Source: Cinnamomum chago (taxonomy: Eukaryota; Streptophyta; Magnoliopsida; Laurales; Lauraceae). Taken from it: a stretch of 64,000 nt of DNA. The notes beneath the pieces were generated by a model. The model did not search any database. It saw only the letters and a program-made list of their open reading frames with translations, and was not told the origin of the DNA. Of this stretch, positions 20,063-47,983 are shown one piece after another; the stretch's first letter is position 1, and each line of letters begins with the position of its first letter. The stretch lies in NCBI GenBank assembly GCA_038049695.1, contig CP142458.1, positions 46,777,001 through 46,841,000 on the forward strand, written 5' to 3'. The position numbers and the translations under genes were made by a program.

Positions 20063-20573
20063 TGTAAGACCCCGACCCGAGTGAACCTGATTAGTGCTAA
20101 TTAAGTTGCGTGTTAGTGCTAAGCTTGATTAGTGATTTTGGCTAAGTTGGTTTGGAATAGCTTTTGTTATAGTTTTGGAGTAGTTTAGTGGATTTTGATT
20201 GCTTTGTGCTAGTAGGGCCCTTTGGGGGTTCCTTTTCATGACTTTGCATGTGCTCGAGGATTTATCGGAGATTTTTGTATTTATGGTTTTAATCTCGTTT
20301 TATTGGTATTGTTATTCCATACAACTTTCATGTTGATCCCGTGTCCATCTGAGATCCCGAAACCCGATTGCATAGCCTTGAGGGCAAGACAGTCATTGCA
20401 CACAAAATCTGTACCCCAAAACTTGTATTCCCGAAACCCGCGAAACTTATACTTTTTAGAAACTAGATATTTCGACGATCATTTCTTATTTCTTCGTCGA
20501 ATTCATCCGAGGTCCCGAAAGAGATGATTTCAGCCCAATTAGAATTCTAGTGGTGGAGCCCACTCCCCACTTG

Positions 20574-20582
20574 TTTATAAGG
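20574..20582 (+). promoter_or_regulatory. TATA box of Tekay solo LTR
   Basis: TTTATAAGG followed by AGAACC and a pyrimidine-rich leader. A donor-like CAAGTAAGT lies about 252 bp downstream. Confidence 0.55.
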
Positions 20583-21420
20583 AGAACCTTCTTCTTCTTC
20601 ATTTCCTTTTTCCAGCACAAGAGAGTGAGAACCTAGGGTTTCATTGCCTTCTTCTTCTTACTCTTGCTTGCAATCACTTAACTCACCACCAATCTTGCAC
20701 AACTTGAGTAGTGGAGATCATCACCTTCTTCCTCATCACCCTAGCTCTCCATTGACACCATTGCTTGAGAAAACCATTCATCACAAGACTTTCTTTGAGC
20801 TTGCCATTGCCATTAGAGGACCTTGCAAGTAAGTAATCCCTTTCATCTTCTAGATTTGTTGTCTCCTAGCCCTTGATAAGCTCCATTTGCATTATTGAAA
20901 GTTCTTTCATTTTCATTCTTTGTGTAACCCATTTTAGGGTTGTTTTGGGGATTTTTTATTGTAGCTTGGAAGTGAGCTTGAGAAGTGATTAGAGGCTTGA
21001 TTTTTGGCTAGCTTGGACATAAGGCAAGTGAATGATTGGGTGTTTTAAGTTTTAAATGGTTGGTGAAGTATTTATGGATTTTCATGTTTTCATTAATATG
21101 TTTATGGTTGAAATAAATGTTCTTGATGGGGTATTAAAGGATGTATTTATGGTCATAAAGACATGTTAGCTCATAGCAATTAATGTTTTCTTGTTTTGTC
21201 TTGAATATGTATATTGTGTGAAATGGTTTCCTTCTCCTCTTTGCTTGTATGGAAGGTGATATGGATGGAGGAGAATGTGATGGATGTGGTTGGAGATTTG
21301 AGGTCATTTGATTGGAGATTTATACTCCTCATTTGATGTATGAAAGTGGTTAAGAAGGGGTTGTAAAAAGGAAGAGTTATTGTGGAGCTGAACTGGTCTG
21401 AATTCAGGTTCTGGACAGTT

Positions 21421-21689
21421 CGCTCGAGCGACCATGACACTTCGCTCGAGTGACCTGTCCAGGAAAGGGTTCGGAGCATTCCAGTAGCTTGGTCGCTCGA
21501 GCGGACCCCTAGTCGCTCGAGCGGACATCCCAGAACTCATTCCAGAGAATTGTTCGTTCGAACGCATTTAAATATTCCCTCGACCCAATGAGTTCGTTCG
21601 AGCGACCTCCACTTCGCTCGAGCGAACCCACCCAGACAACCATTCCAGCGAGCGACTCGCTCGAGCGAACCCTCCAGTCCGCTCGAGCG
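21421..21689. repeat. Array of nine CGCTCGAGCG-type palindromes
   Basis: Copies start at 21421, 21443, 21494, 21514, 21555, 21595, 21615, 21658 and 21680. Most adjacent copies are 20-22 bp apart, arranged as pairs. The copy at 21555 is CGTTCGAACG, changed in both arms so that the palindrome is kept. The flanks are otherwise not repetitive, so this is not a simple satellite. Confidence 0.9.
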
Positions 21690-22269
21690 ATGCGGTTCGT
21701 CTGGCATAGGCTATGTTTGGGACAATGTTCAACTGTTTCAATGGTTGGGTCTATTCTCTGGGAACCCCTCTATATCAAGGAGATTTATTAAGCATTGTAT
21801 GAGGCCATTTGAGGAAGAAACCATATCACAAAGATTTCATTCGAAGTTTTGGAAATTCAAGGTGCATAAGGAGCCCGGAATGTCTTCTAACTCGAGGAGT
21901 ACCAAGTCTTTACTATAATTGACATACGGGACCCCTACACACTAAATAGATCTTGAAACCAGTATTTTACCCGAAATTGTTATAGTTCATTGTTTCACTT
22001 CATTCCAAGATTTATATTATATGATTTGTTTACCCAAAAGCATGATAGTTACACTAGTAACAGTTATTTGTCCCGAAATGTATTGCCCGACAGGAAATGA
22101 CAGTGTGCCCTTGAGCACCCCGTCTTGCTCGTTTATTTATTGTACTTGATTTACTTGCTTATGTCTCGATTTGTTATTTGCCCTATGAGTTGGCATCACT
22201 AAGCTTGGATACCTTGTCGGTTTGATCCACCGACTTGGAGATCCCTTCCCGTCCCGCCAGCTGCAGTTT

Positions 22270-22341
22270 GGATCCCGATACCCGGTCTATTACTGTGGTC
22301 CCGTCCCGATACCCGGTTCGCTACCGTGGTCCCGTCCCGTA
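22270..22341. repeat. CCCGATACCCGGT tandem repeat
   Basis: Roughly 34-bp units of CCCGATACCCGGT...TACNGTGGTCCCGT, two units plus a partial. Equivalent blocks occur at about 36040-36112, 38590-38690 and 46595-46660, and in reverse at 29020-29125. Confidence 0.7.
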
Positions 22342-23176
22342 TATTTATATTGTATATATGATTTACGTTGAATCTCCTCACCTTGTGTGACTGAGATCAA
22401 CGTCCCGTTATACTGTTGTCACCTTAGTGACAGAGGACTTAGCTTTATGTGATTTCCATCTTGCTAGTTCCCGATTCCTTGGTTACCTTATATGTTTTAT
22501 CTTATTTGCCCGTTTTCTAACAAATGATTTATCTACTTTATGAGAGTTCTTGTTTAAACAGATTTCTATGATTTTTAAGGTATTTCCTTTATTATTATAT
22601 GTTGTTGTATCTTTCATTCTCTTGTCAGACCGTTGTGTCTGACCCATTTGCTTTGGTACTCAGGTCCCGTTGCCGGTTTCCTTGAGGAGGAGCCGGAGGA
22701 GGCGGTAGGTGAACCGCAACCTCTAGTCGAGTGGCGTGCTGACGATGTCGTGTAGACATCGGGTTGTTATGAGAAGCGTAACATTTTGGGGAAAACTATT
22801 TAACCATCCATTGGGTGATTATTTTGTTTATATTGGCCTTTGTTGGCCTCTAATTTTGGAGAATGTATATAAGTGATCTTTTGTTAAACTTTAACTTACT
22901 TTTGGGAAACATATTATTTGATCATTGCTCATTCTGATACAGTAATTTATACTTGATGTTAGTGCTTTCATGACTAGAGATAGTCTTCACTATTGATTTG
23001 CTACACGCTTCCGCATTCAAAAAGAAATATATGTTTATGGTTATGATATCCTCACAGCGGACACCTGTGGGAAATTAAATAAGTGTATGTTATCATTTAA
23101 ACAGATGTGACGTGGATCATCATTTAGTCCCGACTCCGGATCGGTTCCTTCGGGGGCCCGGTCCGGGGTTGCGACA

Positions 23177-23181
23177 TTCTA
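23177..23181. repeat. Target duplication of Tekay solo LTR, right
   Basis: TTCTA directly after the terminal ACA at 23176. Confidence 0.93.
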
Positions 23182-23345
23182 CACACAACTTGTTTCCCTA
23201 CTAGTGTGTTTACTATCAGAATGTAATCCAATTCACTATGTGTTGCATCAATCATCTTAGCAAAAGTAGGAGATGAAAACGAATGTGTGGATCCAGGATC
23301 AAATAAATTTGAGCTTCTACCCCCCAAACAAGAAGTTTACCTTCC
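23182..23345 (-). pseudogene. pol: Protease N-terminal half
   Basis: Minus-strand LFDPGSTHSFSSPTFAK holds the retropepsin active-site Asp. The frame runs into the solo LTR at 23181 after VGKQVVCR. The gag frame upstream reads into this region out of phase, so a frameshift separates gag and protease. Confidence 0.87.
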
Positions 23346-24622: not shown

Positions 24623-24784
24623 GATGCAGTAAAACAAGGTGTTAGTACACAATAATCATGGTATAAGGGTTTCTAAGGTCGTATACCAAACGAATCTATC
24701 GAACTCAAGAATCCTCACCACGTTCCTAAGACCTTTCTAGTTTCTTTTAAGTGCATGAAACAAGTCCCGCTCTGATACCAGTCT
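24623..24784 (-). other. Leader and primer site of the Tekay element
   Basis: TGGTATCAGAGC on the minus strand at 24769-24780 lies 4 bp inside the 5' LTR boundary. The leader between it and the gag ATG is about 150 bp. Confidence 0.88.
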
Positions 24785-27544
24785 TGTCGTGACCCCGGAA
24801 CGGATCTCAAGCCCGCGACGTTGATTTGTTTGGTTGGTGTTTTTTTTCCCACAGGTTCTCGCGGTGAGGATTCCCGAACACGCGGAATCTGTCTCACACG
24901 ATCAAGTTTGCGGAAGCGTGTAGTAAATCACATCAGTATAAGCACCAATAAAATTTTAAGTGTTATGACAAAATAATATCAAGACATAGTATCACAAGAA
25001 AAAAGTTAACATAGCATTCCCATCATAATTCAAGTTATGAGACTAACACAAAAGGTAGTTAAGTTTAGTTACATCCCACAAGAGGCCAATAGAGGCCAAT
25101 ACAATTCTCAAAATGACAAAGGAAACCCATGACAAAATGAAGGGCAACTCAAGAACCCGCCCGACGTCTAGTTGACATCGTCGGGTTGCCACTCTCGGAC
25201 TGGGGGTGGCTCAAGAGCCTCCTCCGGATGCTCCTCCACAAAGTCAACGTCACCTGTACCTGGGCACCAACATACAAGGATCAAACACGACGGTTTGACA
25301 GGTAATCAATTTAAGCATGAGCATGTAAGTAAGTGTTTAAATAATCATATAAGGACATTTTGTTGAATTGTAAATAGTTACATGACTAAGGTACATTTCA
25401 AAATACGAGCAAAGGTAGCATGAATACTTATAATATCATGAATAGTTACATTCCACAATGAGCCCATCCTTTCTCTATCATTTATAATGAAAAGAGCAAG
25501 CACGCACGACAAGCACGATATACATAATATAATCATGACACGATTCCCACATATACGGGGATTCCGGCCGCGGAACTGGACACGCACAATGTGTAATAAA
25601 ATACACGACCAATCTGCAGATAGTCCACATGTTTAAGGACCCACAGATAGTGGATCAAACTGAAAGGGCAGTCCAAGCTCAGTGGTGTTCACTTAAATTC
25701 ATGAATGCACAGAACACAACGAAACACATATTAAACCAAATCAAGTTTGAAGGGGGAAATCACTTATCATAATTAAACAAGACACGGCTAGCAAGTGGCA
25801 TAAGTATATCTATGCAAAACACGCTTAAGAAGTGACCTCCTTTTTATCCTTGAAACCATTTTCAAACAAGCTTATACTTAACTACAAAATGAGTACACGA
25901 TAATACTTGTTGCATCAAAACTAAAGTTCGAAAGCAAAGTCTATCAAGCGTATTTAAAGGTCTTTGGTTGACCCTTGAGTAATTGAAACCCAAATATTAA
26001 AATTGCAAAGAGAATTGGGTGCCCCCGGTGTTAAAGACATCTCAGGTTTCAATCGTACAATGTCAGGCTAAAAGTCCCATAACATATTCTAGTTTTCATT
26101 CTTGTAGAAATCCTTCTAAAACAACTCATATTGGAGTTTCAGTCACCTCTCGGTCACCTGTCGGTCGACCGAGGTGGAGTATGTCGGCTAGCCGACAATT
26201 GACCGACAGATTTTTCCAGAAAATCTCAGCTCTCGGGAAAGGGAGCCGAACTGAGTTCGGTTGGCTGTCGGTCGACCGAATGGGAATTTCGGTCAGCCGA
26301 CAGCTGACCGACACTGCGCGGACAATGCATTTCAAGTTAGATTTTTACATTTCTTCTTCCCTTCTTCGTATTTCTCCTTCAACTTGCACTTCCCTGAGCC
26401 TACAAGCTCTCCAAGGGATAAAACACACATTTCATAGCACAACTTGAGACATCACATTCTCATTCTTCAATATAAAACAAAATCCCCAAAATTTCCATTC
26501 AAGACCATAGATTTCCAATGAAATGAGAAGAATGAAAAGAAAATAAATCAAATGCACACATGCTATATTCCATCCTAGATTGGTTACTTGCCTTAGTCCA
26601 AGATGTCACAAACCTTCTTCAAGCACTTCCACTCAAGATATTCCAAAGACTACAAAACCCATGAAAACCATAAAAAACTCACTCAAACTTGAAAACAAGA
26701 AACCCATTTTCACAAAAGGGTTTGCAACATGAAAAACAAGATCTTTAGGAACCAAAAAGGCTCCAATAAAAAGATGGGTTGGAGCTCTTACCTAGAAATG
26801 GCCAAACAAGAGAGAAGGAAGAAAATGGAGATCTTGCCCAACTAGAAACTTCAAGAAACTTGTATCAATGGAAAGCTTGGGATGAGAGGAAGAAGATGAT
26901 GGTCTTGGGATTCCATTTGGAGTCTTCTAGCTTGATCCTTCAAGAGAAATAAAGTGGAAAGGAAAGGGCTTCCTCCTCTTGGCTGCTCTAGGGTTAGGGT
27001 TTGAGAATGAAAAGAGGGAAAGAGAAGGAGTTGGCTTAAAACCTTAGCAAATGGGCCCAATGAGCCTAAACTTGCATTAACAAAAACATGATCTTGCGGG
27101 CCTCGAATGAACTCGATGAAGAAGGACAAAATGATCCTCGAAATATGTAGTTTCCAAAAGGTATTTTTTTGACATGGTTTTGAGATTTCAAAATTTGTGT
27201 CCAGATTTGTGCGTAAAAGATAATTTTACCCTTTTTGGTCCAAAACTTGGATTTTGGGCTTCAAACACGAATGGGCTGAAAATGAAAGTTGTAACAACTA
27301 ATAAAACCATTCAAAAGAAATCAAAATCACAATTAAAAATGAAAACCAATACGATCCTCCCAAGCTTACACCTTCACTCAGGCCTTCCTGAGCGTGTCTG
27401 ACTAACACTTACGTTCTCAAAATTCCCAAAGCTATATCTAGGACTAAAGCTAATTATTTCTAACCCAACGATAACTAAAACCACTTAAGATTAAATCCAC
27501 ACTAAACACTCACTAATCGAATTAGTCTAGGTCGGGGTCTAACA
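24785..27544 (-). repeat. 5' LTR of the Tekay element
   Basis: This 2,760 bp LTR runs on the minus strand from TGTTAGACCCC to GGTCACGACA. It holds the empty site for the Tat-type solo LTR (near 25440). Its palindrome cluster is at 26161-26300: TCGGTCGACCGA at 26161 and 26268, TCGGCTAGCCGA at 26184. A TTTTAAG box is at 27035-27041 and a donor-like TAGGTAAGAG at 26785-26794. Confidence 0.92.
26161..26300. repeat. Palindrome cluster in Tekay 5' LTR
   Basis: TCGGTCGACCGA (26161-26172), TCGGCTAGCCGA (26184-26195), TCGGTCGACCGA (26268-26279) and near-palindrome TCGGTCAGCCGA (26289-26300). Pair spacings are 23 and 21 bp. Compared with 15426-15595, one pair has been lost or changed by GACCGACGAGCTGACCGAC duplication. 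Confidence 0.82.
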
Positions 27545-28198: not shown

Positions 28199-30159
28199 TG
28201 TCGTGACCCTAGACCGGTTCCACAGAACAAATCCGGGATCGGGACTAATGTGAAGTGATGGTGAGGAGGTGCACACATTTATTTAATTTCCCACAGGTGT
28301 CCGCGGTGAGGATATCACAACAACATAGTACATTTTTGTTTAGTGTGGAAGCGTGTAGGAAATCAAATTAGAAATTCAACTCTAGTCATAAAGGCGATAA
28401 CACATGTATAAACCAAGTATCAGAATGAGCAATGATCACTAGTGTTTTCCCAAAAGAAGTATTAAAGTTTATACAAAAGATCATTTGATTATGTTTCCCA
28501 AAAATAGAGGCCAACAAGGCCAACATAAACAAAATATAGTTCTCAAAAGAATAATTATCCACAACCCAAAATGTTACGCATCTCCAACTACCGAATGTCT
28601 AGATGACAACATTGGCATGCCACTCAACTAAATGTTGCGGTTCTCTGACCGCCTCCTCATGCTCCTCCTCGGGGTAACGGACATCGGGACCTGAGTACCA
28701 AAAATGGGTCAAACACGACAGTTTGATAGATGGGTGAAAAGATATGACAATATAATAATAAATGAATTTACCTTTAAAAGCATTTAAACCAGTTTAAATA
28801 ACAATTTTCATAAAAGAGATAAATCATTTATTCAAAAGCAAGTATGCAATGTAAATCATATAAGGTGACCAAGGAAACGGGAAATAAGAAAGATGACAAC
28901 CACACAAACCTAAGTCCTCTATTACCGAAGTGACAAGAGCATATCGGGACGTTGATCTCAGTGACCGAAGTGAGGGGATTCAACGAAATATACATATACA
29001 TATAATAATACGGGACATGATCATGGTAGCGAGCCGGGCATCGGGAACCATGGTGGCGAGCCGGGTATCGGGAACCACGATAGCAATTCGAGGTATCGGG
29101 ACAAGACCACGGTAATAACCGGGTAGCAAGATCCAAACTGGAGCTGGCGGGACAAGAGGGGGATCTCCAAGTCAGTGGATCAGACCAACAAGGTTATCCA
29201 AGCTTAGTGATGCCGACTCATAGGTCAAATAACAAAATTCAAAACATGTATAAAATACATCAAGTACAAGTATGTAAACAAGCGGGACAGGGGTGCTCAA
29301 AGGCACAACTGTTATATCAATCCGGGCATGTATATCGGGGCTAGCAAATTGCTACAGTTGCAATTTCAATGTTTTTAGGAGTGCATAGGAAATTCGGGGA
29401 TAATGAAATGCAATGAACTTTCAAAATCTCAAGACAAGTATCGGGGTTAAAGACTAATTCAAAGTGAATAGGGATCCCGTATGTCTATATCCATAAAGAC
29501 TCGGTACTCCTTGAGTTTGGGGACATTCCGGGGTCCTTATACACTTCGGGGATTTCAAAACTATAATGAATCTTTATGAAGTGGTTCCTTTCTCAAACGG
29601 GCTTCATATAGCGTTTCCCCATATCTCCATCTCATTGGGGCTCTCAACAAACCTCTCCCAATCATTCAAACATTTCATTTTTACTTCCAAAGTAGCCCCA
29701 GGTGAATAGTACCCATCGCTCGAGCGGACCTGGAGTTTGCTTGAGCGGTGAGCTCTCTGGAATGACTTTCTGGGTGGGTTCGCTCGAGCGAAGTTGAGTT
29801 CGCTCGAGCGAACTCATCCAGTTCAGGTTGGCTCGAGCGAAATTTTAGTTCGCTCGAGCTAACCATTCTTTGGAATGGGTTCTGGGAGGGTTCGTTCGAG
29901 CGATATAAGGTTCGCTCAAGTGAACTGTCCACTAGAATGGTTTGAACCCCTTTCTGGACACTTCGCTCGAGCGATCTGCAAGTTCGCTCGAGCGAACTGT
30001 CTAGAAACTGGTTCCGGGACAGTTTTGCTTCTCCTCCTTTCCCATCCTTTTACAACCCCTTTTTGAGCCCCTTCCATACACCAAATGAAGAGCTCAAAAA
30101 CCTTTCCAAACCATCCTTAAATCTTCTACAACATTCATTCCATCCTCCTACAATCAAAT
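28199..30159 (-). mobile_element. Truncated Tekay-type LTR (5' LTR of the gag fragment)
   Basis: The plus-strand left boundary is TGTCGTGACCC. The sequence matches the reverse complement of roughly the last 1.95 kb of 20063-23176, including a CGCTCGAGCG array (29717-29993) and CCCGATACC-type repeats. The first part of the LTR is missing because the Tat-type LTR starts at 30160; the remainder would lie beyond that element. Confidence 0.9.
29717..29993. repeat. Array of ten CGCTCGAGCG-type palindromes
   Basis: Copies begin near 29717, 29738, 29781, 29801, 29830, 29851, 29893, 29913, 29963 and 29984. They form five pairs with 20-22 bp spacing and larger gaps between pairs. Some copies have single changes (GGCTCGAGCG, CGCTCAAGTG). 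Confidence 0.9.
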
Positions 30160-30318
30160 TGTTGACACCAAAAATGTCACATTGCCTCCTCAACATCAAG
30201 AAGCTGCATCCTACTACAAAACGAGCAATGCTACTTCAAGCATCAGATCTTGCCAGAATCAAACAAAAACTGCAGGATCCTTCAAGACAGCCAAAAGAGA
30301 GGTTCACATGAAGTTTCG

Positions 30319-30941
30319 TGTCATTCCAACATCATTTGGCCTAACTTCACTCCTCCGGCAGCCAAACTGGAGTTCTTGGCGGCGACGGGGTAGAAGACAT
30401 CAAAACTTCGATTAGAGCCTACGGATGGTCTCAAAATAACTCCAAAAGGCTCCATGCCAAATTTCAAGTCAAACCGACAACGTTTGACCCTCCATCAACT
30501 CTCGAGCAGTAAAATCAAGCCTCTCGACGGCGAGAATCACCGAGGCCATCACTCATCAAACAGAGCACGTGGGTGGCTTCAACATGCTTTTAAAGGGCTG
30601 CACACCAAATTTCACTTCATTCTGACAACGTTTGACCCGACTTTGGCGCTCCGAAATAAAATCAAGGCTACCGGCGGCGGAGCACCTCGGGACCATGACA
30701 TCCAAAACGGAGCCAACAGATCGTCTCAAAATGACTCCAAAAGGCTCCCTATCAAATTTCAAGTTAATCAAACATCGGTTGACTGCACATTAACGAGGGC
30801 ATCTTTTTCACGGCGAAATCAAATCTACTGGCGACGGGACCCCACACGGCTTCAAAACTCAAACGAAAGCCCATGGTTGGTCCTATCTACTGCTCAGCGG
30901 GCTTCACCTCAAATTTCAGGTCATTCCGACATTGTTTGACC
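30319..30941. repeat. Five 23-bp dyads at 147-157 bp spacing
   Basis: Positions 30319, 30467, 30614, 30762 and 30919. The last has arms GGTCA and TGACC extended by partial pairing around the CGACAT core. Spacings are 148, 147, 148 and 157 bp. Confidence 0.85.
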
Positions 30942-31151
30942 TAGTTTCGACTCTTGATGGAAAATCGGCTACAAAGTCTTTGGCGTTTCCAAAAAAAAAA
31001 TATAGGAAACTTTGTGCTCCGATTTGTATGGATTCTTGTCAGGTTTTCTTTAGGACAATCAAGCCAATAAATGAGGAGAAAAATACAGGAGAAAAAAGCA
31101 TAAAAAGACCAAAAAACGGCAGAGAAACGGCGACTGAAAAAGGAAAAATCC

Positions 31152-31225
31152 CCATGGTCGACGGCACCCTTGGCCCGGCGACCCCAACCCATGGTCGCCG
31201 GCGACCATGGAAATCCGGGTCGCCG
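31152..31225. repeat. Palindromic CCATGGTCGCC cluster with a perfect 22-bp palindrome
   Basis: CCATGGTCGAC begins near 31152. At 31189-31210 the 11-mer CCATGGTCGCC is immediately followed by its exact reverse complement, a perfect 22-bp palindrome. A further GGGTCGCCGG lies at about 31217-31226. Confidence 0.9.
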
Positions 31226-31920
31226 GATTTGTCGTCGGGTGGCCCGTTTTTCGCCCTTTCCGCTTTTCGAGAGTTCTACCCTTGTGGTTTTCTGAAAATT
31301 TGATTTTTTATGCTCGAAATCGACTGATCTTCATCAACATTTCGGATCCGCTGTCAAGAGCATGTAATCATCATTGATCGCTCCAAGATCACCAACCGGC
31401 TGACCAAGAAAGTACACTTTCTGTCTGACCGATCGAGAAATCAACAAGACATGTCACCGGCCCGCTGGTATCAACCAATGTCTGAAGTTGCATCACCATC
31501 CGACATCAAACAACATGTGGATCCATCGGCGATCATCACAGCAAGAATTCCAAAAGACATGGCACGGCCCGCGACTCTTCAAATGCCCTCGCGACCACTT
31601 AATGCTGTTAATTGACTCGTTTTATGACAACTTAATGCGGTCATTAACCCATTATTTTGTACGGCCCAATCAAAATCAAGCAAATGGGAGTTACAAATCC
31701 AAGTAATCATGGCATTAAAACCATGAAACTCCCCTCATCATGGAGATTAAGGGTGATTAAATGCCCATCATTCTCCACCGGCCAATCATAAGCCAAGGAA
31801 TAGAAGTTACAAAATCAAGAATTAAAACTTGTAACTCCTCCCATCATGGAACATCAATGCCATCAATTCCCTCATCATGGGTCATCAATCCCATAAATCA
31901 CCCCATGGCTAACAAGAGCC

Positions 31921-31930
31921 TATAAAAAGG
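31921..31930 (+). promoter_or_regulatory. TATA box of Tat-type 5' LTR
   Basis: TATAAAAAGG, at the homologous position to 13898. Confidence 0.6.
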
Positions 31931-32742
31931 GGGTAATTCCAAGAGATCCAGAGACAGACATATACACACGAATAGAGAGAGATACGTAGACAGAGAGAGA
32001 TCCATACTCACAGGCAAGGAAGAAAAACTATGAAGAAATCCTGCCACTCTGTTGCTGAAACATTACAAGGTGATCGAAGTCCCTTGGGGGGCCATCCCTT
32101 CAAGGTCTCCTCCCTCCTTCTATCCAACATGGCCTAAACGCGGCTTTTCAGCTTGTTTACTCGCTTTTTCATTGGATATAGGACCTCCCCTTGGTTTTTA
32201 TCCTCTAAAAAATTTGAGGTCCAAGCCAAGCCAAAGAATCAAAGCATCAAGTGTTCTCATCTGAAGGACGATGGCGAAGTCGATACATGACTTGCGACTG
32301 TCAATCTGAACGAGTCCCCGCAATCTCCTGAGAAGTCAAATCCCTTTTCTTACTTTTCTATTGTATTTTGTATTCTTTGTAAAGAGATAAAAAGATCACA
32401 TTTCTTGTCTTTCATTATTGATGAGATTTGTAAATCGCATTTCACAGCACAAATAGCACAAAAATCACCTTTCACGGCAAACAAAATGAAATCGTCTCTC
32501 ACGGCATTTAAAAATTGTGTATTTTTTTTAAAATATATGTGCAACAGAAAGTTAGAAAGAAGAACTGATTTCCTTTCTACTTGTGAAGGTGAATCTCCGG
32601 ATCACCACTTCAAATTTCAAGTAGAATAGAAAATCTGGCATACCCGTACAAAAAATGTTGACGACTCGCTTTTCCTCCTCCGCCATACTCCCGGCAGCCC
32701 CAGGGGTGGGAAGGAGAGGATGAAAGGTCGGAGCCCCCATCA

Positions 32743-33044: not shown

Positions 33045-33549
33045 TGTAAGACCCCGTCCCGAGTGACCTCGATTAGTATTAGTTAAGTTGTGTTTTAGTT
33101 CTAAGTGAGTTTAGTGGATTTTGGTTAAGTTGGGTTTGGAATAGCTTTTGATATAGTTTTGGGGAAGTTGGATTGCTTGTGATTAGTGGGGCCCTTTGGG
33201 GGTTCCTTTTTATGACTTTGCATGTGCTTGGGGATTTATCGGAGATTCTTGCATTCATTGTTCTAATCTTGTTTTATTTGTATTGTTAATCCCTACAACT
33301 TTTATGTTGATCCCGTGCCCGTTTGAGATCCCGAAACCCGATGTCATAGCCTTGAGGGCAAAACAGTCATTGTGCACTAAATCTGTACCCAAAACTTGAT
33401 ATTCTCGAAACGCGTGAAACATATACTTTTTGGAAACTAGATATTTCGGCGATCATTTCTTCCTTCTTCGTCGAATTCATCCGAGATCCCGAAAGCTAAG
33501 ATTTCAGCCCAAAGAGTGCCTTAAGTAGTGGGACCCATTTCCATTTGCT

Positions 33550-33558
33550 TATATAAGG
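33550..33558 (+). promoter_or_regulatory. TATA box of plus-strand Tekay LTR
   Basis: TATATAAGG, followed 248 bp later by CAAGTAAGC. Confidence 0.6.
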
Positions 33559-33838
33559 AGAACCCATCTTCCTCATTTCCCTTTTTCCAGCACAAGAGAG
33601 AACCTAGGGTTTCCATTTTATTCCTTCTTACTCTTGCCTCCCATCACCAAATCCACCACCAACCTTGCACAAATTGAGAGGTTGAGATCACCATCTTCAA
33701 CCTCATCACCATAGCTCTCTATTGATACCATTGCTCGAGAAAACCCTCTATTCCAAGATCTTCTTTGAGCTCACCTTGCCCATATGGGGAACCTACAAGT
33801 AAGCAACCTTCCCCATCTGTTAGATTTGTGTTTCTTTG

Positions 33839-33843
33839 ATCTT
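33839..33843. repeat. Target duplication of inner solo LTR, left
   Basis: ATCTT before TG at 33844, repeated at 36944-36948. Confidence 0.93.
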
Positions 33844-36800
33844 TGTAAGACCCCGACCCGAGTGAACCCGATTAGTGCTAATTAAGTTACGAGTTAGTAC
33901 TAAGCTTGATTAGTGATTTTGGCTAAGTTGGATTTGGAATAGCTTTGATTCTAGTTTTGGGCTTCTGTGAATGCTTTGATAACTAGTGGGGCCCTTTGGG
34001 GGTTCCTTTTCATGACATTGCACATGTTTGGGGATTTATCGGAGATTTTTACATTCATGGTTTTAATCCCATTTTATTGCTATTGTTATTTCATTCAACT
34101 TTCATGTTGATCCCATGTTCATTTGAGATCCCGAAACCCGATTTCATAGTCTTGAGGGCAAACAGTCATTGTACACAAAATCTGTACCCAAAATTTGATA
34201 TTCCCGAAACCCACGAAATATATACTTTTTGAAAACTAGATACTTCGACGATCATTTCTTCCTTCTTCGTCGAATTCATTAGAAGCCCCAAAAGAGATGA
34301 TTTCAGTCAAACAAGTTCCTTTAGTAGTGGGACCCAACTCATTTGTTAACAAAGGGAAGTCATTCTTCATTCATTTCATTCTTCATGTTCCAGCACAAGA
34401 GGAGAGCCTAGGGTTTCCTTGCAACTCTTCTTCTTCTTGCTTCTCCATCTCCAATCCTCACCAATCTTGCACCAACATCTAAATGGAACCCACCATCCTC
34501 TTCCTCAACTTGCAAGCTTCATCTTGATACCATTTTTGGAGAAATCTCCCAGCCTTGAGATCTTCTTTGAGCCAGCTCTCTTCATTTGAAGGTCATCCAA
34601 GTGAGTAATCCTTCCCATCTTCTAAATTAGTGTTCCTCTAGCCCTAGAGAAGCTACATTTGCATTATCGTTTTCATTCCTTATGTAACCCATTTTAGGGT
34701 TGTTTTGGGGGTTTTTTATTGTAGTTTGGATTTGAGCTATAGAGGTGACTTGAGGCTTGGTACAGCTAGCTTGGACTTGAGGCAAGTGAATGATGAAGTG
34801 TTTTAAGTTTTAAATGGTTTGGGGAAGCATTTATGGATTTTCATGCTTTCATTAATGTGTTTATGGTTGAAATAAATGCCCTTTTTGCACCTTGATAGTC
34901 TTATTTAATGTTTTGTAAACATGTTGGTTTAGCATTTATTGTCTTTTGGATATATCCTAAATGAATGTTTGTGAAATGGTTTCCTTCTTCCTTCCTTTGT
35001 ATTGGACTTGATATGGAAGAAGTGATGGAGTGAACACATGATGGGGTTTTGAAGAAGTGTAGATAGAGGCATTGGAGGAGCTCTTAGCTCAGTTATATTG
35101 CAGGGACCAAGTGGAAGTGGGGAGAATGATTTTGAGGAGGAGAAATGGCTCAAATCTGAACACAGTGGGTGTTTCCTGCACCTGACGGTCAGCCTGCGGT
35201 CACCCGGCGGCTAGCCGCCTGGTGACTGGCGGCTAACCGCCAGCTAGCCGAAATGTCACGGTTGCTTTTCCAGAGAGCACACTTCTCCACCTGAAAACTC
35301 GGTCAGCTCCATGGTTAGCTAGCGGCTAACCGCCGAACCCATCGGCGGCTAACCGCCAGCTAACCGCACTTGGCGGTTAGCTTTCCAGTAAGATGCATTT
35401 CTGCAGCCCAACCGCGGTCAGCTGCGCGGTCAGCCAGCGGCTAGCCGCCCATCCCAGCGGCAGCTAACCGCCAGCTGACCGCCAGGTAACCGAAATTCCC
35501 CAGGTTTCGAAAAGCTCCTCGCTCGAGCTTTGTCGATCAAAGGAGATTCACTAGGCATTGTATGAGGCCATTTGAGAAAGAAACCATATCACGAGGATGT
35601 CATTCGAAGTTTTGAAAATTCAAAGTGTATAAGGAGCCCGGAATGTCTTCAAACTCAATGAGTACCAAGTTATCATTACAATCGACATACGGGACCCCTA
35701 TTCACCTTAAACAAATCATGAAACCAGTATTTTTTTACAGAAATTGTTATAGTTCATTGTTTCACTTCATTCCAAGATTTGTGTTATATGATTTGTTTTC
35801 CCGAAAGCATGATAGTTACACTAGTAACAGTTATTTGTCCCGAAATGTATTGCCCGACATGAAATGACAGTGTACCCTTGAGCACCCCCGTCTTGCTCGT
35901 TTATTTATTGTACTTGATTTACTTGCATATGTCCCGATTTGTTATTTGACCTATGAGTCGACATCACTAAGCTTGGATACCTTGTCGGCTTGATCCACCG
36001 ACTTGGAGATCCCTCTCCCGTCCCGCCAGCTGCAGTTTGGATCCCGATACCCGGTCTAATACCTTGGTCCCGTCCCGATACCCGGTTCGCTACCGTGGTC
36101 CCGTCTCGTATATTTATATTGTATATATGATTTGCGTTGATTCTCCTCACCTTGTGTGACTGAGATCAACATCCCGTGATACTGTTGTCACTTTAGTGAC
36201 AGAGGACTTAGCTCTATGTGATTGCCATCTTGTTAGTTCCCGATTCCTTGGTTACCTTATATGGTTTTACATTATTTACCTGTTTTCTAACAAGTGATTT
36301 ATCTACTCTATGAGAGTTCTCGTTTAAACAGATTTCTATGCTTTTCGAGGTATTCCCTTTATTATTATATGTTGTTGTATCTTCTCATCCTCTTGCCAGA
36401 CCGTTGTGTCTGACCCATTGCTTTGGTACTTAGGTCCCGTTGCCGGTTTCCTTGAGGAGGAGCCAGAGGAGGCGGTAGGTGAGCCGCAACCTCTAGTCGA
36501 GTGGCGCGCTGACGATGTCATGTAGATATCGGGTTGCTAAGAGAGGCGTAACATTTTGAGGGGAACTATTTAACCATTCATTGGGTTATTGTTTTGTTTA
36601 TATTGGCCTTTGTTGGCCTGTAATTTTGGGAAATGTAATTAAATGATAAGTGTATAACCTTAACCTACTTTGGGTAACATGCTAATGTTCATTGCTCATT
36701 CTGATACAGTAATTTATACTTGATGTTATTGTCTTCACGACTATAGATAGTCTGACTATTTGATTTGCTACACGCTTCCGCACTCTATAGAAATGTTCAG

Positions 36801-36943
36801 TTATGGTTGTGATATCCTCACCGCGGACACCTGTGGGAAATTAAATAAATAAATGTATGTATGTATGTTTTAAATAAACTGTTGATGTTCACTTAGTCCC
36901 GATCCCGGATCAGTCACGTGGGGCCCGGTCCGGGGTCGCGACA
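33844..36943 (+). mobile_element. 3.1 kb Tekay-type solo LTR nested in a related LTR
   Basis: This 3,100 bp LTR begins TGTAAGACCCCGACCCGAG and ends GGTCGCGACA with a perfect ATCTT duplication. It inserted into a related LTR of the same orientation, about 795 bp from the start and 40 bp after that LTR's donor-like site. Its own TATA region is degenerate (GTTAACAAAGG near 34345), but a CAAGTGAGT donor-like site remains at 34598-34606. The palindrome array (35206-35475) uses GGCGGCTAGCCGCC, not CGCTCGAGCG. Confidence 0.95.
35206..35475. repeat. Array of GGCGGCTAGCCGCC-type palindromes
   Basis: GGCGGCTAGCCGCC at 35206-35219 is a perfect 14-bp palindrome. Further copies are near 35228, 35322, 35344, 35437 and 35457, mostly GGCGGCTAACCGCC with one central mismatch. 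Pairs are 20-22 bp apart. Weaker CAGCTAGCCG and GGTTAGC half-words lie between them. Confidence 0.88.
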
Positions 36944-36948
36944 ATCTT
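36944..36948. repeat. Target duplication of inner solo LTR, right
   Basis: ATCTT directly after the terminal ACA at 36943. Confidence 0.93.
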
Positions 36949-37529
36949 GAAGAAGTCCCATTCTCATTATTGTAAGATTTCCCTTTCTATTTCATTGTTT
37001 GACCATTTTAGAGTTTGTTTTTGGGGATTTTGTTCATAGCTTGGATATTTGGCTTAGAAGAGTATAAGAGCTTGATTTCCTTGATTAGAAGACCCAAGGC
37101 AAGTGGATGAGTTAATATTATGAGCTTTCAATGGTTTTCTTGAGGAATGTGGTTGATTTGTCATTTCCATTCATATTTATTGCTTGCATTGATTTTTGAA
37201 ATAAATGCTTTGAATGAACCTTGCTAAGTCATTTAATGTTTTGGAAACATATTGGTTTGGTACTTGTTGTCTTTTGGATATATCTTAAATGAATGTTTGT
37301 GATTGGTTTCTTTTCCTCTTGTGGTTGTTGTGGTTAAGAAAGAGGAGATGGAATGAACACATATTGGAGTTGTGGAGAAGTGTAGATAGAGGTATTGGAG
37401 GAACTCTTAGATCAGGTTTATTGCAGGGATTAAATAGAAGTGAGGAGAGTGGTTTTGAGGAGGAAAAATGGCTCAAAACTGAACACAGTGGGTGTTTCCC
37501 GCACTTGGCAGTCAGCCAGCGGTCACCTG

Positions 37530-38010
37530 TCGGCTAGCCGTCTGGTGACTGGCGGCTAACCGCCAGCTAGCCGAACAGTCGCGGTTACCTTTCCAGAGAG
37601 CAACAATTTCCTCCTGAAAGCACGGTCAGCCTCACGGTTAGCAAGCGGCTAACCGCCTAACCCATTGGCGGCTAACCGCCATCTAGCCGAACAGTCGCGA
37701 TTACTTTTCCAGAGAGCAACATTCTCCTCCTGAAAGCACGGTCAGCCTCACTGTTAGCAAGCGGCTAACCGCCAGCTAGCCGAACAATCGCGGTTACTTT
37801 TCCAGAGGGCAACATTTTCCTCCTGAAAGCATGGTCAGCCTCACGGTTAGCAACCGGCTAACATCCGAACCCATCGGCGGCTAACCGCCAACCAACCGAA
37901 CCATTTCGGTTACATTTTCAGTAACCTATCTTTCTGTCAGCCAACCGCAGTCAGCCGCGCGGTCAGCCAACGGCTACCCGCCTAACCCAACGGCGGCTAA
38001 CCGCCATTTG
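37530..38010. repeat. Expanded GGCGGCTAACCGCC array with about 94-115 bp higher-order repeat
   Basis: GCGGCTAACCGCC-type words recur near 37551, 37645, 37667, 37760, 37874 and 37992. They lie within three to four copies of a longer unit containing TTTCCAGAGAGCAACA and CTCCTGAAAGCACGGTCAGC (unit starts near 37574, 37689 and 37783). Confidence 0.85.
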
Positions 38011-39512
38011 ACCGCTAGGTAACCGAAATCACCCAGACGACAATGATGAACTATTTAAACGTGTTGGGACTATTCATTGAGGTCCCCTCTATGTCAGGGA
38101 GATTTATTAAGCAATGTATGAGGCCATTTGAGAAAGAAACCAAATCACGAAGATGTCATTCGAAGTTTTGAAAATTCAAAGTGTATAAGGAGCCCGAGAT
38201 GTCCCCAAACTCAAAGAGTACCAAATTATTATTAGATCGACATACGGGATCCCTATTCACTTCAAATAAATCTTGAACCCGATACTTTACTCGAAATTTC
38301 AATTGTTTATTGTACTTTATCGATCCTGAGAGTTATACTACATGCCTTGTTTTCCCGAAAGCATTGAAGTACACTTACAATTGTTACTTGTCTTGAAGTG
38401 CATTGCACCACATGAAACAACAGTGTGCCCTTGAGCACCCCCGTCCTGCCCGTTTATTTATTTGTACTTGATTTACTTACATATGTCTCGATTTGTTATT
38501 TAACCTATTAGTCGGCACCACTAAGCTTGGATAACCCGGTTGGTCTGATCCACCGACTTGGAGATCCCCCTCTTGTCTCGCCAGCTGCAATTTGGATCCC
38601 GCTACCCGGTTATTACCGTGGTCTTGTCCCGATGCCGCAGATTGCTACTGTGGTTCTCGATGCCCGGCTCGCTACCGTGGTCATGTATAGTATATGTATA
38701 TGTATTTATAAGATCCATTGTTTCTCCTCACCTCGAGTGACTGAGATCAGTGCGTAGTTATTGTTCTATCACTTTAGTGACAGAGGACTTAGCTTCGTGT
38801 GGTTGCCATCTTGCTTGTTTCCCGTTTCCTTGGTTACTGTACATGTTTTACAATGCCTACTTGTATTTGAATAAATATTTTATCTCGTTTATAGAAATTG
38901 TTATTTAAACAGGTTTAAATGGTTTTGAAGGTAAAATTCATTTATTATCATATTTTCATTGTATTTTACCCATTTTCCAAACCGTTGTGTTTGACCCACT
39001 CTTTGGTACTCAGGTCCCGTTGTTGGTTATCCCGAGGAGGAGCACGAGGAGGCGGTCGGAGAACCGTAGCAATTAGTCGAGTGGCATGCTGATGATGTCA
39101 TTAGACATTGGATTACTAGATAACATTTTGGGAAAACTTTAACCATTCTTTTGGGGATTGGTATTTTGTTTATATTGGCCTTTGTTGGCCTCTAATTTTG
39201 GGAAATGTAATTAAATGATCTTTGTATAAACTTTAACTTACCTTTGGGTAACATGCCAATGATCATTGCTCATTCTGATACAGTACTATACTTGTGTTAT
39301 TATCTTTATGACTAGAGATGGATTGAATATTTGATTTGCTACCCGCTTCCGCACTTAATCGAAATGTTCATATATGGCTGTGATAATCCTCACCGCGGAC
39401 ACCTGTGGGAAATTAAATAAATGTATGGCATTAAACCGATGTGGTACATCATCATCATTAGTGTCCCAATCCTGGATTAGTCCTTCGGGCCCGGTCCGGG
39501 GTCACGACAGAC

Positions 39513-39524
39513 TAGTATCAGAGC
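39513..39524 (+). other. Primer binding site of the plus-strand Tekay element
   Basis: TAGTATCAGAGC, 3 bp after the LTR end. It is one change from the consensus TGGTATCAGAGC; the same variant occurs at 11619-11630. Confidence 0.85.
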
Positions 39525-44224: not shown

Positions 44225-44742
44225 TGTATCCCTAGAACCCGACCCCTAATTTCCTGGATTAGTGTTGTTTTAATTGTAGATTAGTTTCTTTTAGTGGGAT
44301 TAGTGCTTGTTGGGTGGATTTTGTGAGCTAGAATGGTTTTTCACTAGTTTTGGGGAGTTTTGAGTGCCTTTGTGATTAGTGGGACCCTTTGGGGGTTCTT
44401 TTAGTGACTTTGCGCGTGATTGGGAGATTATTCGAAACTTCCGATATTTCTTGTTTTAGCCTCATTTGACTTATTTTGTTAACCTCTACAACTTTCATGT
44501 TCACTCCGTACCCATTCGAAGCTCCGAAAATCAGTTTTTCCAACCCTGAGGGCAAAATCGTCTTTTCACGTTGAATCTGGACCCAAATTTCGAGATCTCA
44601 GAACCATGCCAAATTTATACTTTTTGAAAACTGGATTTTATGAGAAGCATTTTTCTCTTCTTCGTCGATCACATCCGAGGCCCAGAAATTGATGTTTTAT
44701 CCTTGACAAGTTTTGAATGTGGTGGGGCCCACACCCACCCAT

Positions 44743-44750
44743 TATAAAAG
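44743..44750 (+). promoter_or_regulatory. TATA box of the diverged Tekay-like LTR
   Basis: TATAAAAG, with a donor-like AAAGGTAAAG about 254 bp downstream. Confidence 0.6.
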
Positions 44751-45621
44751 ATGACTCTCCCCTCTCCCCTCACTCATTCGTTGCAGCCAAAAGGGGAGCT
44801 CTGCAACTGAGCTTCCCCTTCCCTTTTCTTCTTGTTTTCTCCTCCCCTTTCATGGAGGAAACCCTTGCCATTTGGAAACCCAACCATGCCATCTTCTTCC
44901 CCATCTCTCTAGCTTCCCATGGATGTTATTTTTGTGCAAAACCAAGGTGGGCAGCCCCTACTTCAAGCTTCTTCTTGTTGATTGATGACCCTAAAGGTAA
45001 AGACTCCTTCCCATTTTCCTTTTATGCGCAATGGCTTTCCCTTAGGTTCTATTTCCTAGTTTGATTTGAGCTCATTCCTTGTCTTTCATTGTTTGACCCA
45101 TTTTAGGGTTTGTTTTGGGGGGTTTTTGTAGAGATTGTTGATCTTGAGCTTAAGAGGTGATTAGAGGCTTCGTTTTGCTAGATTGGAACCCAAGGCAAGT
45201 GGATGAATGGATAAGTTTTTGAACATTTACATGTTTCATGGAAATCTCTTGTTTTACACTATTGGTTCTTAATGATTTTTACATGTGTTTTCATAGTTTT
45301 CCTTGCCTTGATTTCTATTTCTTTTGAAATACATATTGATGAGTTGATTTCTCTATTATACATCTTGATAAATGTATCCATTATGTTGTAAAAGGGTAGA
45401 TGAATCTTATGGATAGTGGTTTTCTTTTCCTTGATGTTTGAATGTGAAGAAGAAGGTGATTGGAGTTAATGTTCATTGAAGTTTTGAGGGGAGTTTTATT
45501 TTAGTTTGGATGGTTGTTGAAGTGAGGAAAAGCTCAGTTTGTATAAGTGTTGAAAGGATGAAAAAGAGGAGGACCTATCCCACTGTAGAACAAAACCTGG
45601 GTTCTGTTCCGCAGTGTACCC

Positions 45622-45789
45622 GGTCGACCCCACGGTGGCTCGGTCGACCTGGGACACAGGGTCAAACACTGTTTTACCATTTTCAGTTACAACTCCCGGT
45701 CGACCGGCCATGGGCTCGGTCGACCGGGCACACAGGGACCAGGTCGACCGAGCCTTGACCAGGTCGACCGGGCCTTGACCAGGTCGACT
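45622..45789. repeat. Array of seven GGTCGACC palindromes at 20-bp spacing
   Basis: Copies start at 45622, 45642, 45698, 45718, 45742, 45762 and 45782 (the last GGTCGACT). Intervals are 20, 56, 20, 24, 20 and 20 bp. Spacers differ in sequence except for CTTGACCA between the last copies. Confidence 0.9.
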
Positions 45790-46937
45790 GGGACAGCTGA
45801 GAAATCCTTGCTGGAAGGGATTTTTACCCTGTTTTTGGATGGGCTTAGGTGGGACTTTGGCTGCCCTTTTCGGACTCATTGGACTATATGTGAGGATGTC
45901 TTGAGCCGACGTTCTTCACGGTTAGTTCAGTTGCATCGGAATCCAATCCAATTCAATCTTGAACGGTATGGACAACGCGATATCCTCCTTATATCTATAC
46001 GCAAAGTCTATTTCCTTGGGTATCGCAAAATTCTATCCATTTTGGTGACTGTGTAGGTTGTACGATGCTTCAGGATTAACATCATACTTAGGATGGATTG
46101 TTTATAGTTTTGATTTTTAACCGTACCGTCTAGTACAATCTATAAGCTCACTTTAAAGTTTTGAAATTTGTAAAGTGTATAAGGAGCCCGAAATGTCTTC
46201 AAACTGAAGGAGTACCAAGTCATTATTATAATTGACATACGGGACCCCTATTCACCTTAAATAAATCTTGAAACCAATATTTTTACACGAAATTGTAATA
46301 GTTCATTGTATTCCCTCATTTCCGAGATTTATATTACATGACTTGTTTTCCCGAAAGCACTGAAGTTACACTAGTAACAATTATTTGTCCCGAAATGTAT
46401 CGCCCGACATGCAACGACAGTGTGCCTTTGAGCACCCCCGTCTTGCCCGTTTATTTATTGTACTTGATTTACTTGCATATGTCTCGATTTGTTATTTGAC
46501 CTATGAGTCGGCATCACTAAGCTTGGATAACCTTGTCGGTTTGATCCATCGACTTGGAGATTCCCCCTCCCGTCCCGCCAGCTGCAGTTTGGATCCCGAT
46601 GCCCGGTTTATTACCGTGGTCCCGTCCCGATACCCGGTTCGCTACCGTGGTCCCGTCCCGTATATTTATATTGTATATATGCTTTACGTTGAATCTCCTC
46701 ACCTTGTGTGACTGAGACCAATGTCCCGTTATACTCTTGTCACTTTGGTGATAGAGGACTTAGCTTTTTGTGATTGCCATCTTGCTAGTTCCCGATTTCC
46801 TTGGATACCCTACATGTTTTATATTGCTTATTTGTTTTCCGGTAAATGATTCATTCCTTTTATGAAAGTTATTATTTAAACAGGTGTTAAGATTTCCAAG
46901 GTAGATTCAGTTATTGTTATATTGTTTCCCGTTCCTT

Positions 46938-47345
46938 GTACACACACATGTTTTAAATGAATACCCGATTTGTTAGATATCCGTGTTTTCAAATATGTTT
47001 TAAATGACAATTGTTTTGTCAGATCCCTAAGTTTACACATGTTTTAAATGAATGCTCGATTTATTAAATATTCATGCTTTTACATATGTTTCAAATGGAC
47101 ATTTGTTTTGCCAGGTTTCTATGGTTACACATGCTTTAAATTAATACCCGGTTTGTCGAATATTCATGCTTTTACATATGTTTCAAATGAACGTTTGTTT
47201 TGCCAGACCTCTACACTTATACATGTTTTAGACGAACACTCGATTGTCAAATATCTATACTTTTATAGATGATTTAAATGAACATATGTTTTGTTAGATC
47301 TTCATGTTTTACCCATGCTTGAAACGAATACATGTTTTGTTAGAG
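46938..47345. repeat. About 91-bp tandem repeat, 4.5 units
   Basis: Units begin near 46940, 47035, 47126, 47219 and 47311 with TACACATGTTTTAAATGAAT-like sequence and contain ATTTGTTTTGCCAGA. The repeat is absent from the related LTRs, so it expanded in this subfamily. Confidence 0.85.
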
Positions 47346-47952
47346 ATCCACGATTTTTCAACCGTTTAATTATATGCAGCATTTGACCAAATAGCATGAT
47401 TTATCTTATGTTTTATGCTTCAGTATATTTATTATCTTTTCATCCACCTGCCAGACCGTCGTGTTTGACCCACTAATTTTGGTACTCAGGTCCAGACTTC
47501 TTCGTCCCGAGATGAGTGCTTTTGTTGGCTGTGGAGCCATGTGTTGCAGGTTGTTTTGTTGGCCATGTCATGTAGACATTGGGCTTGACATTGGAGCTAC
47601 GTCATATATGGGGTAGTGGTTAATAGCTTATTGTTGTATGGCTTCTATTAGCCTTTTCTTGGGATTCTTAATTAATGTATATTGATAATTGTAACTTGAA
47701 CATATATGGGAATGTAATATTCTGTTATTGTCAGCTCTGTACTTGGTTGTAATAGTTTATTCCTGTCTGAGATGATTCTTGATATAATAGTTATATGCTA
47801 ACGGTTGAGTGCGACACGGAATCCGATAGCCACGGACTCCGGGTCACAATTCCACGAAAGCTTCCACAAAATATTCAGAATGTGTTGGAATGTGTTGTCT
47901 TCACACACGCGGATCTTGGGAGAAAAATATAACTATCCTTAATCTCATTCGC

Positions 47953-47979
47953 GCCCCCGAGGTTCTGATTCGGGGGCGT
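47953..47979. repeat. Terminal hairpin of the diverged Tekay-like LTR
   Basis: CGCCCCCGA and TCGGGGGCG are perfect 9-bp inverted arms separated by 9 bp, ending 4 bp before the LTR terminus. Confidence 0.8.
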
Positions 47980-47983
47980 GACA

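Follow-up and report, generated by a model that had tools for sequence, protein, structure and literature searches.

Repeated or symmetrical boxes that vary between subfamilies are known from the long terminal repeats (LTRs) of the retrotransposon Tnt1 (boxes BI and BII of U3), where they lie upstream of the promoter, in few copies and, unlike the arrays described here, are not known to contain CGS-N4-SCG dyads. A closer counterpart is the class of repeated motifs (RM) in the LTRs of Sireviruses. According to the accessible part of Bousios et al. 2010 (PMC2829016), where the symmetry of Tnt1 box I is also cited, RM are element-specific palindromes, mostly with a CGG-CCG core, present in at least eight copies and forming CpG islands; they are located shortly upstream of the TATA box and were reported to be Sirevirus-specific as compared with classic Ty1/copia elements. 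No common site for a single factor was identifiable in the RM covered there, and the word of a Vitis Sirevirus element is CGGTCGACCG. Here we analyse arrays of palindromic words in a 64,000-nucleotide stretch of the Cinnamomum chago genome (hereafter, the window; C8:46777001-46841000 of a 1.06-Gb assembly of 14 contigs, the source of all genome-wide counts). The window contains nested Ty3/gypsy elements with LTRs of ~2.8-3.8 kb, beginning with TGTAAGACCCCG or a variant, and two Ty1/copia elements. Tekay-type LTRs are labelled A-G and Ty1/copia Sirevirus-type LTRs cop1, cop2 and cop3, whereas L-numbers denote further loci.

Like the Sirevirus RM, as far as the accessible text of PMC2829016 describes them, the Tekay arrays consist of a repeated palindromic word, are clustered in the LTR and are rich in CpG; moreover, the Vitis word CGGTCGACCG is that of Tekay LTRs D, F and G and of the Sirevirus resident in the window. 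Unlike RM, the Tekay arrays reside in Ty3/gypsy LTRs downstream of the predicted TATA box, A and E use a CGC-GCG core, and helical spacing, a property of the arrays here, is not mentioned for RM in the accessible part of that paper. The palindromes of maize Sireviruses (2016 work, as related in the accessible parts of PMC10760457 and PMC5311732) likewise form fast-evolving clusters in LTR regulatory regions, but that system belongs to Ty1/copia and is read through small RNAs. In the open-access literature, to the extent that its text was available, we came across no description of arrays of this type in the LTRs of Tekay or of other Ty3/gypsy elements. The initial annotation, which knew of no description of the arrays as a class, was thus mistaken with regard to Sireviruses and so far correct, within that literature, for Tekay and other Ty3/gypsy elements. 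The kind of array is known. New are its carriers, its position, and the more precise rules that govern how words are spaced and how uniform they are. We consider it fairly probable, judging from sequence, that the arrays are DNA-level cis-regulatory modules on which host DNA-binding dimers would bind cooperatively.

Dyad words in LTRs of two superfamilies

All arrays share the dyad form CGS-YYRR-SCG, that is, CGG or CGC followed by a four-base YYRR centre and the complement. Exact CGSYYRRSCG, a form defined after the arrays had been inspected (the CGG-CCG core being prior knowledge from Sireviruses), occurs 37 times in the ten array regions and 0 times in the rest of the window. On the plus strand, array A (21421..21689) holds six exact CGCTCGAGCG and eight dyads at ≤1 mismatch, plus CGTTCGAACG at 21555. 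Array B (37531..38003) has seven exact dyads (CGGCTAACCG, CGGCTAGCCG) and 17 at ≤1 mismatch, some overlapping, and array C (35186..35481) has five exact dyads (CGGCTAGCCG, CGGCTAACCG) and 14 at ≤1 mismatch. Array D (45621..45770) has GGTCGACC six times, two of the words being exact CGGTCGACCG and four carrying one mismatch; they form three pairs with a distance of 20 bp. On the minus strand, array E (29717..29994), with a layout near that of array A, contains five exact CGCTCGAGCG and ten dyads at ≤1 mismatch; array F (26162..26310) comprises CGGTCGACCG, CGGCTAGCCG and CGGTCAGCCG, with four exact dyads and six at ≤1 mismatch; and array G (15427..15555) has CGGTCGACCG, CGGCTAGCCG (two exact dyads) and two one-mismatch dyads, four altogether.

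Similar arrays, overlooked in the initial annotation, are present in the two Ty1/copia elements (LTRs 418-1994, 7330-8903 and 60280-61876). In the Sirevirus they occupy 1453..1598 (minus strand, CTCGGTCGACCGAG-type words) of the 3′ LTR and 8362..8507 (minus strand) of the 5′ LTR, and in cop3 two AGGTCGACCG words 22 bp apart lie at 60728..60759 (plus strand). Exact dyads number three in cop1, three in cop2 and none in cop3; with 3-4 copies per LTR, the arrays of the Sirevirus at 418-8903 are below the published eight.

Measured from the LTR start, the arrays are located at about +1359-1627 in A, +1343-1638 in C, +1397-1546 in D and +1235-1383 in F. Together with B, the offset of which was obtained by summing its two LTR pieces, these LTRs have their word clusters at about +1.2 to +1.85 kb, in agreement with what had been noticed initially, and the clusters reported for minus-strand LTRs are likewise present in E (start lost), F and G (split by an insert). 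The statement that position is conserved while sequence is not is correct by half, since every array has the form CGS-YYRR-SCG and six of them have one spacer in common. This spacer, TTCCAGAGAG (≤1 mismatch), has ten matches in the window, nine of which are in arrays A, E, B, C, F and G, i.e. in six of the seven Tekay arrays.

CGG-N4-CCG was found 28 times in the 2,435 bp of arrays versus five times in the remaining 61,565 bp, and CGC-N4-GCG 11 times in arrays and 0 times elsewhere in the window; the same dyad scan detected no CGG-CCG with N2, N3, N5 or N6 within the arrays. Among Tekay arrays, the CGG-CCG core is present in B, C, D, F and G but not in A and E (CGC-GCG). When the best 350-bp segment of each LTR piece was compared with local shuffles, its CGG-N4-CCG content was matched in 0/1000 shuffles for C, B, F, G, cop1 and cop2 and in 1/1000 for D; in this test there was no CGG-N4-CCG in A and E (word CGC-N4-GCG) and no exact one in cop3. 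With any gap of 0-8 allowed, the result was weaker for D (36/1000) and G (39/1000). The self-complementarity stressed by the initial annotation, taken as the density of perfect palindromes over whole LTRs relative to dinucleotide shuffles, exceeded expectation in A, E, cop1, cop2 (0/500 each) and F (1/500); for D (24/500), C (25/500) and G (44/500) the excess was borderline. If perfect-palindrome density alone were considered, the weak or negative results for B, C, D, G and cop3 would be compatible with chance palindromes; given the CGG-N4-CCG test and the genome-wide pair counts of CGGTCGACCG with a control of 0 (see below), an origin by chance is scarcely credible.

Spacing of neighbouring words

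Each family of the window was represented by a single array (A, C, D, F, cop1 and cop3; B and E left out) when distances of ≤30 bp between neighbouring words were collected, and 26 of 26 fall at 10-12 or 20-24 bp. A larger set comprised 74 distances of ≤62 bp from five window arrays and 15 genome loci, with the pair that had selected each locus excluded; loci L037, L014, L015, L016, L019, L025 and L026 were left out. R(10.5) of this set is 0.56, equalled by 0 of 20,000 uniform draws. Fifty-three of its distances are ≤24 bp, with 47 at 10-12 or 20-24 bp, two at 19 bp and four at 14-18 bp. At L037, dyads are dispersed over GC-rich repeats that may be rDNA.

Genome-wide, there are 15,538 pairs of CGGTCGACCG 10-40 bp apart (gaps of 0-30), 15,368 of them 18-24 bp apart (gaps of 8-14), counts that do not represent independent events; a reversed-pattern control returned 0. 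At the 50 plus-strand places listed, 49 pairs are 20-23 bp apart and one is 30 bp apart. The mixed pair CGGTCGACCG-CGCTCGAGCG with gaps of 8-14 has 0 forward matches and one reverse match in the genome, and CGCTCGAGCG is no rarer than CGGTCGACCG (11 versus seven exact occurrences in 195 kb sampled by place).

Words shared between families

Three kinds of word serve the seven Tekay-type LTRs: CGCTCGAGCG in A and E, CGGCTARCCG in B, C and partly F and G, and CGGTCGACCG in D and partly F and G. CGGCTAGCCG is found in B, C, F and G; the word of D and of the Sirevirus-type LTRs is CGGTCGACCG or differs from it by one base. Several words are thus held in common, contrary to the idea of one private word per subfamily, and GGCGGCTAACCGCC, quoted initially as self-complementary, is not fully so, its centre being CTAA.

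After masking of the words, some Tekay arrays still align beyond mononucleotide shuffles (C-G, z 9.9; B-G, z 5.6; C-F, z 4.4; B-F, z 3.8), which indicates that the arrays are partly homologous and that their words have changed. Masked A-C also scored (z 5.2), with the alignment located in the upstream flank, and no alignment beyond mononucleotide shuffles was obtained for A-F, A-B, A-G, E-B or any pair with D. Comparison of masked copia and Tekay arrays yielded no clear alignment in 16 comparisons (lowest 17/300), and the word common to Tekay and Sirevirus-type arrays is therefore best read as convergence. Words are better kept than spacers in A-E (73/80 versus 140/183 positions, p 0.006) and in C-B (67/70 versus 71/87, p 0.007).

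These comparisons bear on the possibility that the arrays have no function and arose as by-products when, in each family, one chance palindrome was duplicated in tandem and homogenised. Arrays B and C do consist in part of tandem units of 93-116 bp, as such a process would produce. It would, however, leave unexplained that unrelated families share form and word although their spacers are unrelated, that close CGCTCGAGCG pairs recur at loci L028 and L046, and that words are better kept than spacers in two of the three pairs tested, and we regard it as very improbable. Further arrays, at L034:8550-8982, L028:2172-2326 and L038:3671-4113, are without a BLAST match to window LTRs (E up to 1e-10), and hence more families use these words.

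Position of arrays relative to the promoter

In LTR A, a core promoter is predicted at 20557..20610 (plus strand; about +495 to +548 of the LTR), consisting of AGCCCA, TTTATAAGG and a pyrimidine patch. A TATA-like sequence near +510, following a GCCCA, GACCCA or GGCCCA element and preceding a pyrimidine patch, is clear in A, B, D and L046, i.e. in four of the eight LTRs or pieces of the source genome compared; in C, L045, F and G it is degenerate. A strict TATA scan gave matches near +510 in B and D, and a TATA-like site at +478 of L003 is one of three strict matches. Further downstream, LTR A has a putative 5′ splice-donor-like GTAAGTA (20829..20835, plus strand, LTR +767). A donor-like GTRA, by itself a frequent sequence, occurs at the corresponding place in nine of nine LTRs or pieces, at +745 to +773 and, placed by distance only, at +638 in L003. 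In A, B, C, D, F, G, L045, L046 and L003, GTRA is ~220 nt after the predicted transcription start site (TSS). An intron in the Tekay leader is not claimed, as the donor-like GTRA is not accompanied by a consistent acceptor. Taken together, the TATA-like site near +510 and the donor-like GTRA indicate that the Tekay array is probably downstream of the TSS, ~0.7-1.3 kb past the predicted TATA. No strict TATA was detected within ~350 bp after the Tekay arrays in the LTR pieces scanned, and looser TATA-like sites follow some of them, in A (by eye) and in L046. The former, CTATATCAAGG, was considered as a TATA just after the array and set aside: it is unconserved in B and C, while the +510 site is common to A, B, D and L046.

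The Sirevirus-type arrays show the reverse arrangement. The array of the resident Sirevirus is directly upstream of the TATA (TTTATAAAAAG near 8335 in the 5′ LTR, with the same TATA in the 3′ copy), as specified for RM; a strict TATA is found at +567 of cop1 with the array upstream, and the cop3 array precedes GTTATAAAG (by eye), with the strict scan flagging only a different site. In seven of seven cop-like genome arrays (L014, L015, L016, L018, L019, L027 and L045, of which L014 and L015 are nearly alike), a TATA on the element's strand lies 27-30 bp after the last dyad; L018 has additional TATA candidates on the other strand. Relative to the promoter, the array thus appears to be employed on one side by the Sirevirus-type group and on the other by the Tekay group.

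Other motifs were seen in these regions. Beside the Sirevirus-type arrays we noticed by eye TCCAACGGTCA (8419-8429, minus strand) and TCCAACGGCTA (60766-60776, minus strand), which we take to be mitosis-specific activator (MSA)-like. Close to the predicted TSS, between +534 and +572, LTRs A (20634-20641), B, C, F and G contain AAACCCTA or TAGGGTTT, and D has one at +880; these are presumably telobox-like and, together with the upstream GCCCA-type elements, would recall growth-related plant promoters.

RNA folding and CpG content

The location of the Tekay array past the predicted TATA and the splice-donor-like site, hence presumably in the unspliced leader, is what an RNA-level element would have, with hairpins of Tekay genomic RNA serving dimerisation, packaging or recognition of own RNA. 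Folding as RNA, examined for nine of the ten arrays, was stronger than in shuffles in every case (sense z −3.3 to −12.1; seven flank controls, −1.5 to 0.8). Antisense folding is as strong (z −4.3 to −13.2), which is as expected of palindrome arrays. A function of the RNA offers no evident reason for spacings of one or two helical turns, and among 21 A/E copies (≤3 mismatches) a symmetry-keeping change in both arms is seen in only one, CGTTCGAACG. Furthermore, the word is common to other Tekay subfamilies and to Sirevirus-type elements, where it lies upstream of the TATA. Since CGGTCGACCG is shared by Tekay D, F and G with another superfamily in the absence of spacer homology, a private packaging code is unlikely. 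An RNA-level role is accordingly improbable as a whole, and dimerisation retains a small share of probability, given that unspliced RNA would carry the Tekay array in its leader. Of the two ideas put forward in the initial annotation, a private self-recognition code acting through kissing loops or packaging is therefore unsupported, whereas the best fit is a binding site coevolving with a factor.

The observed/expected ratio of CpG is 0.89-1.33 in arrays versus 0.51 elsewhere in the window, and all seven Tekay arrays are CpG-rich. Between +460 and the array there are 0 CpG in A (20522-21410), one each in C and F, and four in D; array A itself contains 31. In Sirevirus-type LTRs, 14 of 19 (cop1), 13 of 18 and 13 of 20 CpGs are inside the array. 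The two LTRs of the cop1 element are 99.6% identical, so that this pattern is unlikely to reflect decay after insertion. Such concentration of CpG would suit a silencing interface, in which the arrays, as CpG-dense hairpin sources or methylation targets, would feed small RNAs or read methylation, and targeting would make the words change quickly. Small-RNA hotspots are indeed located on maize Sirevirus palindromes, as reported in the accessible parts of PMC10760457 and PMC5311732. Silencing would cover small-RNA output, but neither the fixed spacing of neighbours nor the retention of the words, and as the primary role of the arrays it too appears unlikely.

Proposed cooperative binding of host dimers

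Symmetrical, word-uniform sites one or two helical turns apart in unrelated elements suggest cooperative binding of dimers. In this model, rows of CGS-YYRR-SCG sites would be bound by dimers of a host DNA-binding protein, each cooperating with an adjacent dimer at a distance of one or two helical turns, and cooperative binding would drive or tune LTR transcription. The device would be akin to Sirevirus RM and taken up independently by Tekay chromoviruses: Sirevirus-type arrays would act from a position ending ~27-30 bp before the TATA, and the Tekay array as a downstream or intronic enhancer. What is observed are the dyads with their N4 centre, the spacing of neighbours, the uniformity of the words, their positions and their occurrence in both superfamilies, and the promoter call, binding, cooperation and enhancer activity are what we infer from them.

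AP2/ERF half-sites have the cores RCCGAC, RCCGCC and ACCGAGA. Among half-sites of exact dyads, RCCGAC accounts for 8/12 in F/G, RCCGCC for 18/24 in B/C and ACCGAGA for 10/12 in the copia arrays, and none of the three is found among the 22 of A/E. Many half-sites in B/C, F/G and the Sireviruses thus resemble AP2/ERF sites and those of A/E do not, and in view of the latter we name no factor. In the accessible part of PMC11656987, DREB1D sites are LTR-associated and ERF069 sites are mostly absent from LTRs. The array was also considered as an insertion target for other elements and this was set aside, as the palindrome preference at insertion sites is slight, and none is given for Tekay, in the accessible part of PMC6911290.

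Several observations weigh against cooperative binding as the explanation. Folding is strong on both strands, which would fit RNA models as well. For an enhancer, sites within the transcribed part would be unusual, and the TATATAT 50 bp downstream of the array in L046 makes a second promoter after the Tekay array possible. As for spacing, the arrays left out of the 26-distance set have distances of 8 and 15 bp (twice each, B) and one of 29 bp (E), L014 and L015, left out of the 74-distance set, have distances of 19 and 16 bp, and distances above 24 bp show no phasing of their own (7,429 of 20,000 draws reached their value), on which ground long-range helical phasing was rejected. The genome-wide CGGTCGACCG pairs probably come from amplified families, hence the non-independence of their counts. 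Word conservation is no higher than that of spacers in F-G (p 0.80), nor is there a clear difference in cop2-cop3 (words 12/16 and 18/20 versus spacers 100/138). Finally, the word of A and E is without the CGG-CCG core, and perfect palindromes are not enriched over shuffles in B (217/500) and cop3 (53/500).

Elements of the window and their relatives

LTR A (20063..23176, plus strand; delimited by self-BLAST) begins with TGTAAGACCCCG and ends with GACA, and its own internal region is not adjoining here. LTR B (plus strand) consists of a first piece at 33045..33839, interrupted by LTR C (33844..36947, plus strand, 3′ end approximate), and a second piece at 36948..39509, which is followed by a primer-binding-site match at 39513-39524. 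LTR D occupies 44225..47983 (plus strand). On the minus strand, LTR E (28199..30150, upper end approximate) has its 5′ part replaced by another repeat, LTR F (24785..27544) begins with TGTTAGACCCCG, and LTR G is split by an insert into a 5′ piece (14712..16811) and a 3′ piece (11635-12295). A related repeat (~70% identity) is present at 12296-14675, inside LTR G, and at 30160-32705, in place of the lost start of LTR E; the former copy contains a 159-bp tandem part at 12599-12951.

Primer sites of the initiator-tRNA-Met type follow four of these Ty3/gypsy LTRs, and the Tekay-type elements have Ty3-type gag, protease and reverse transcriptase (RT) domains, so that the host of these arrays is not a Ty1/copia Sirevirus. 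The lineage name Tekay is a label from earlier reading of the sequence rather than from an RT tree. A chromodomain in the relative L001 (92% RT identity) is a weak match (Pfam Chromo, 21.8 bits, under the cut-off of 25.1). Of 7,988 RT matches, 120 were listed; these have 56-75% identity, and those with a name belong to eudicots, apart from a single Corynebacterium record that is probably contaminated.

The Ty1/copia Sirevirus (418..8903, minus strand) has LTRs at 418-1994 and 7330-8903 and an open reading frame at 2434-7263. It displays the Sirevirus hallmarks, namely four AGGGGGAG polypurine tracts, the last being AGGGGGAGAT followed by TG (AT/TG junction), a CA/ATTGG/TATCAGAGC 5′ junction and the polyC signal. 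The second Sirevirus-type LTR, cop3, is at 60280-61876 (plus strand, start approximate).

No relatives were found in viral contigs. The scan of genome contigs detected 12 loci in bacteria-labelled records that look like eukaryote contamination. Five of the L-numbered loci (L001-L004 and L009) are plant-like retrotransposon contigs in records of Streptomyces, Mycobacterium, Geminicoccus, Solirubrobacter and Labilibacter, for which contamination is likely. The pol regions of L003 and L004 share ~65-67% DNA identity with the window over longer matches. Neither of these two loci has an exact dyad, and each has a single dyad at one mismatch, outside the LTR; the array is thus not universal among related elements. 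L003, a Tekay-like element of another species, has a non-palindromic tandem repeat before the TATA (L003:5740-6056) and no CGS-SCG dyad in the available LTR parts.

Implications

A broader scenario, which we offer tentatively and consider possible but doubtful, is that unrelated LTR retrotransposons of one plant genome converged on a limited set of common dyad words of the form CGS-YYRR-SCG, which a host family of dimeric factors would read. Each master element would use one word, with neighbours matching at one or two helical turns; families would switch words in concert under pressure from factor or silencing; and Sireviruses and Tekay elements would place the array on opposite sides of the promoter. 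If the cooperative reading holds, the scarcity of mixed pairs would be a mark, at the genome level, either of homotypic cooperation or of words changing in concert. The limited set of words and their tight spacing would make the factor findable by one-hybrid assays, DAP-seq or pulldown. A motif reported as Sirevirus-specific would then be a cross-superfamily device, and one host factor, or a small family of them, may govern much of the plant's retrotransposon load.

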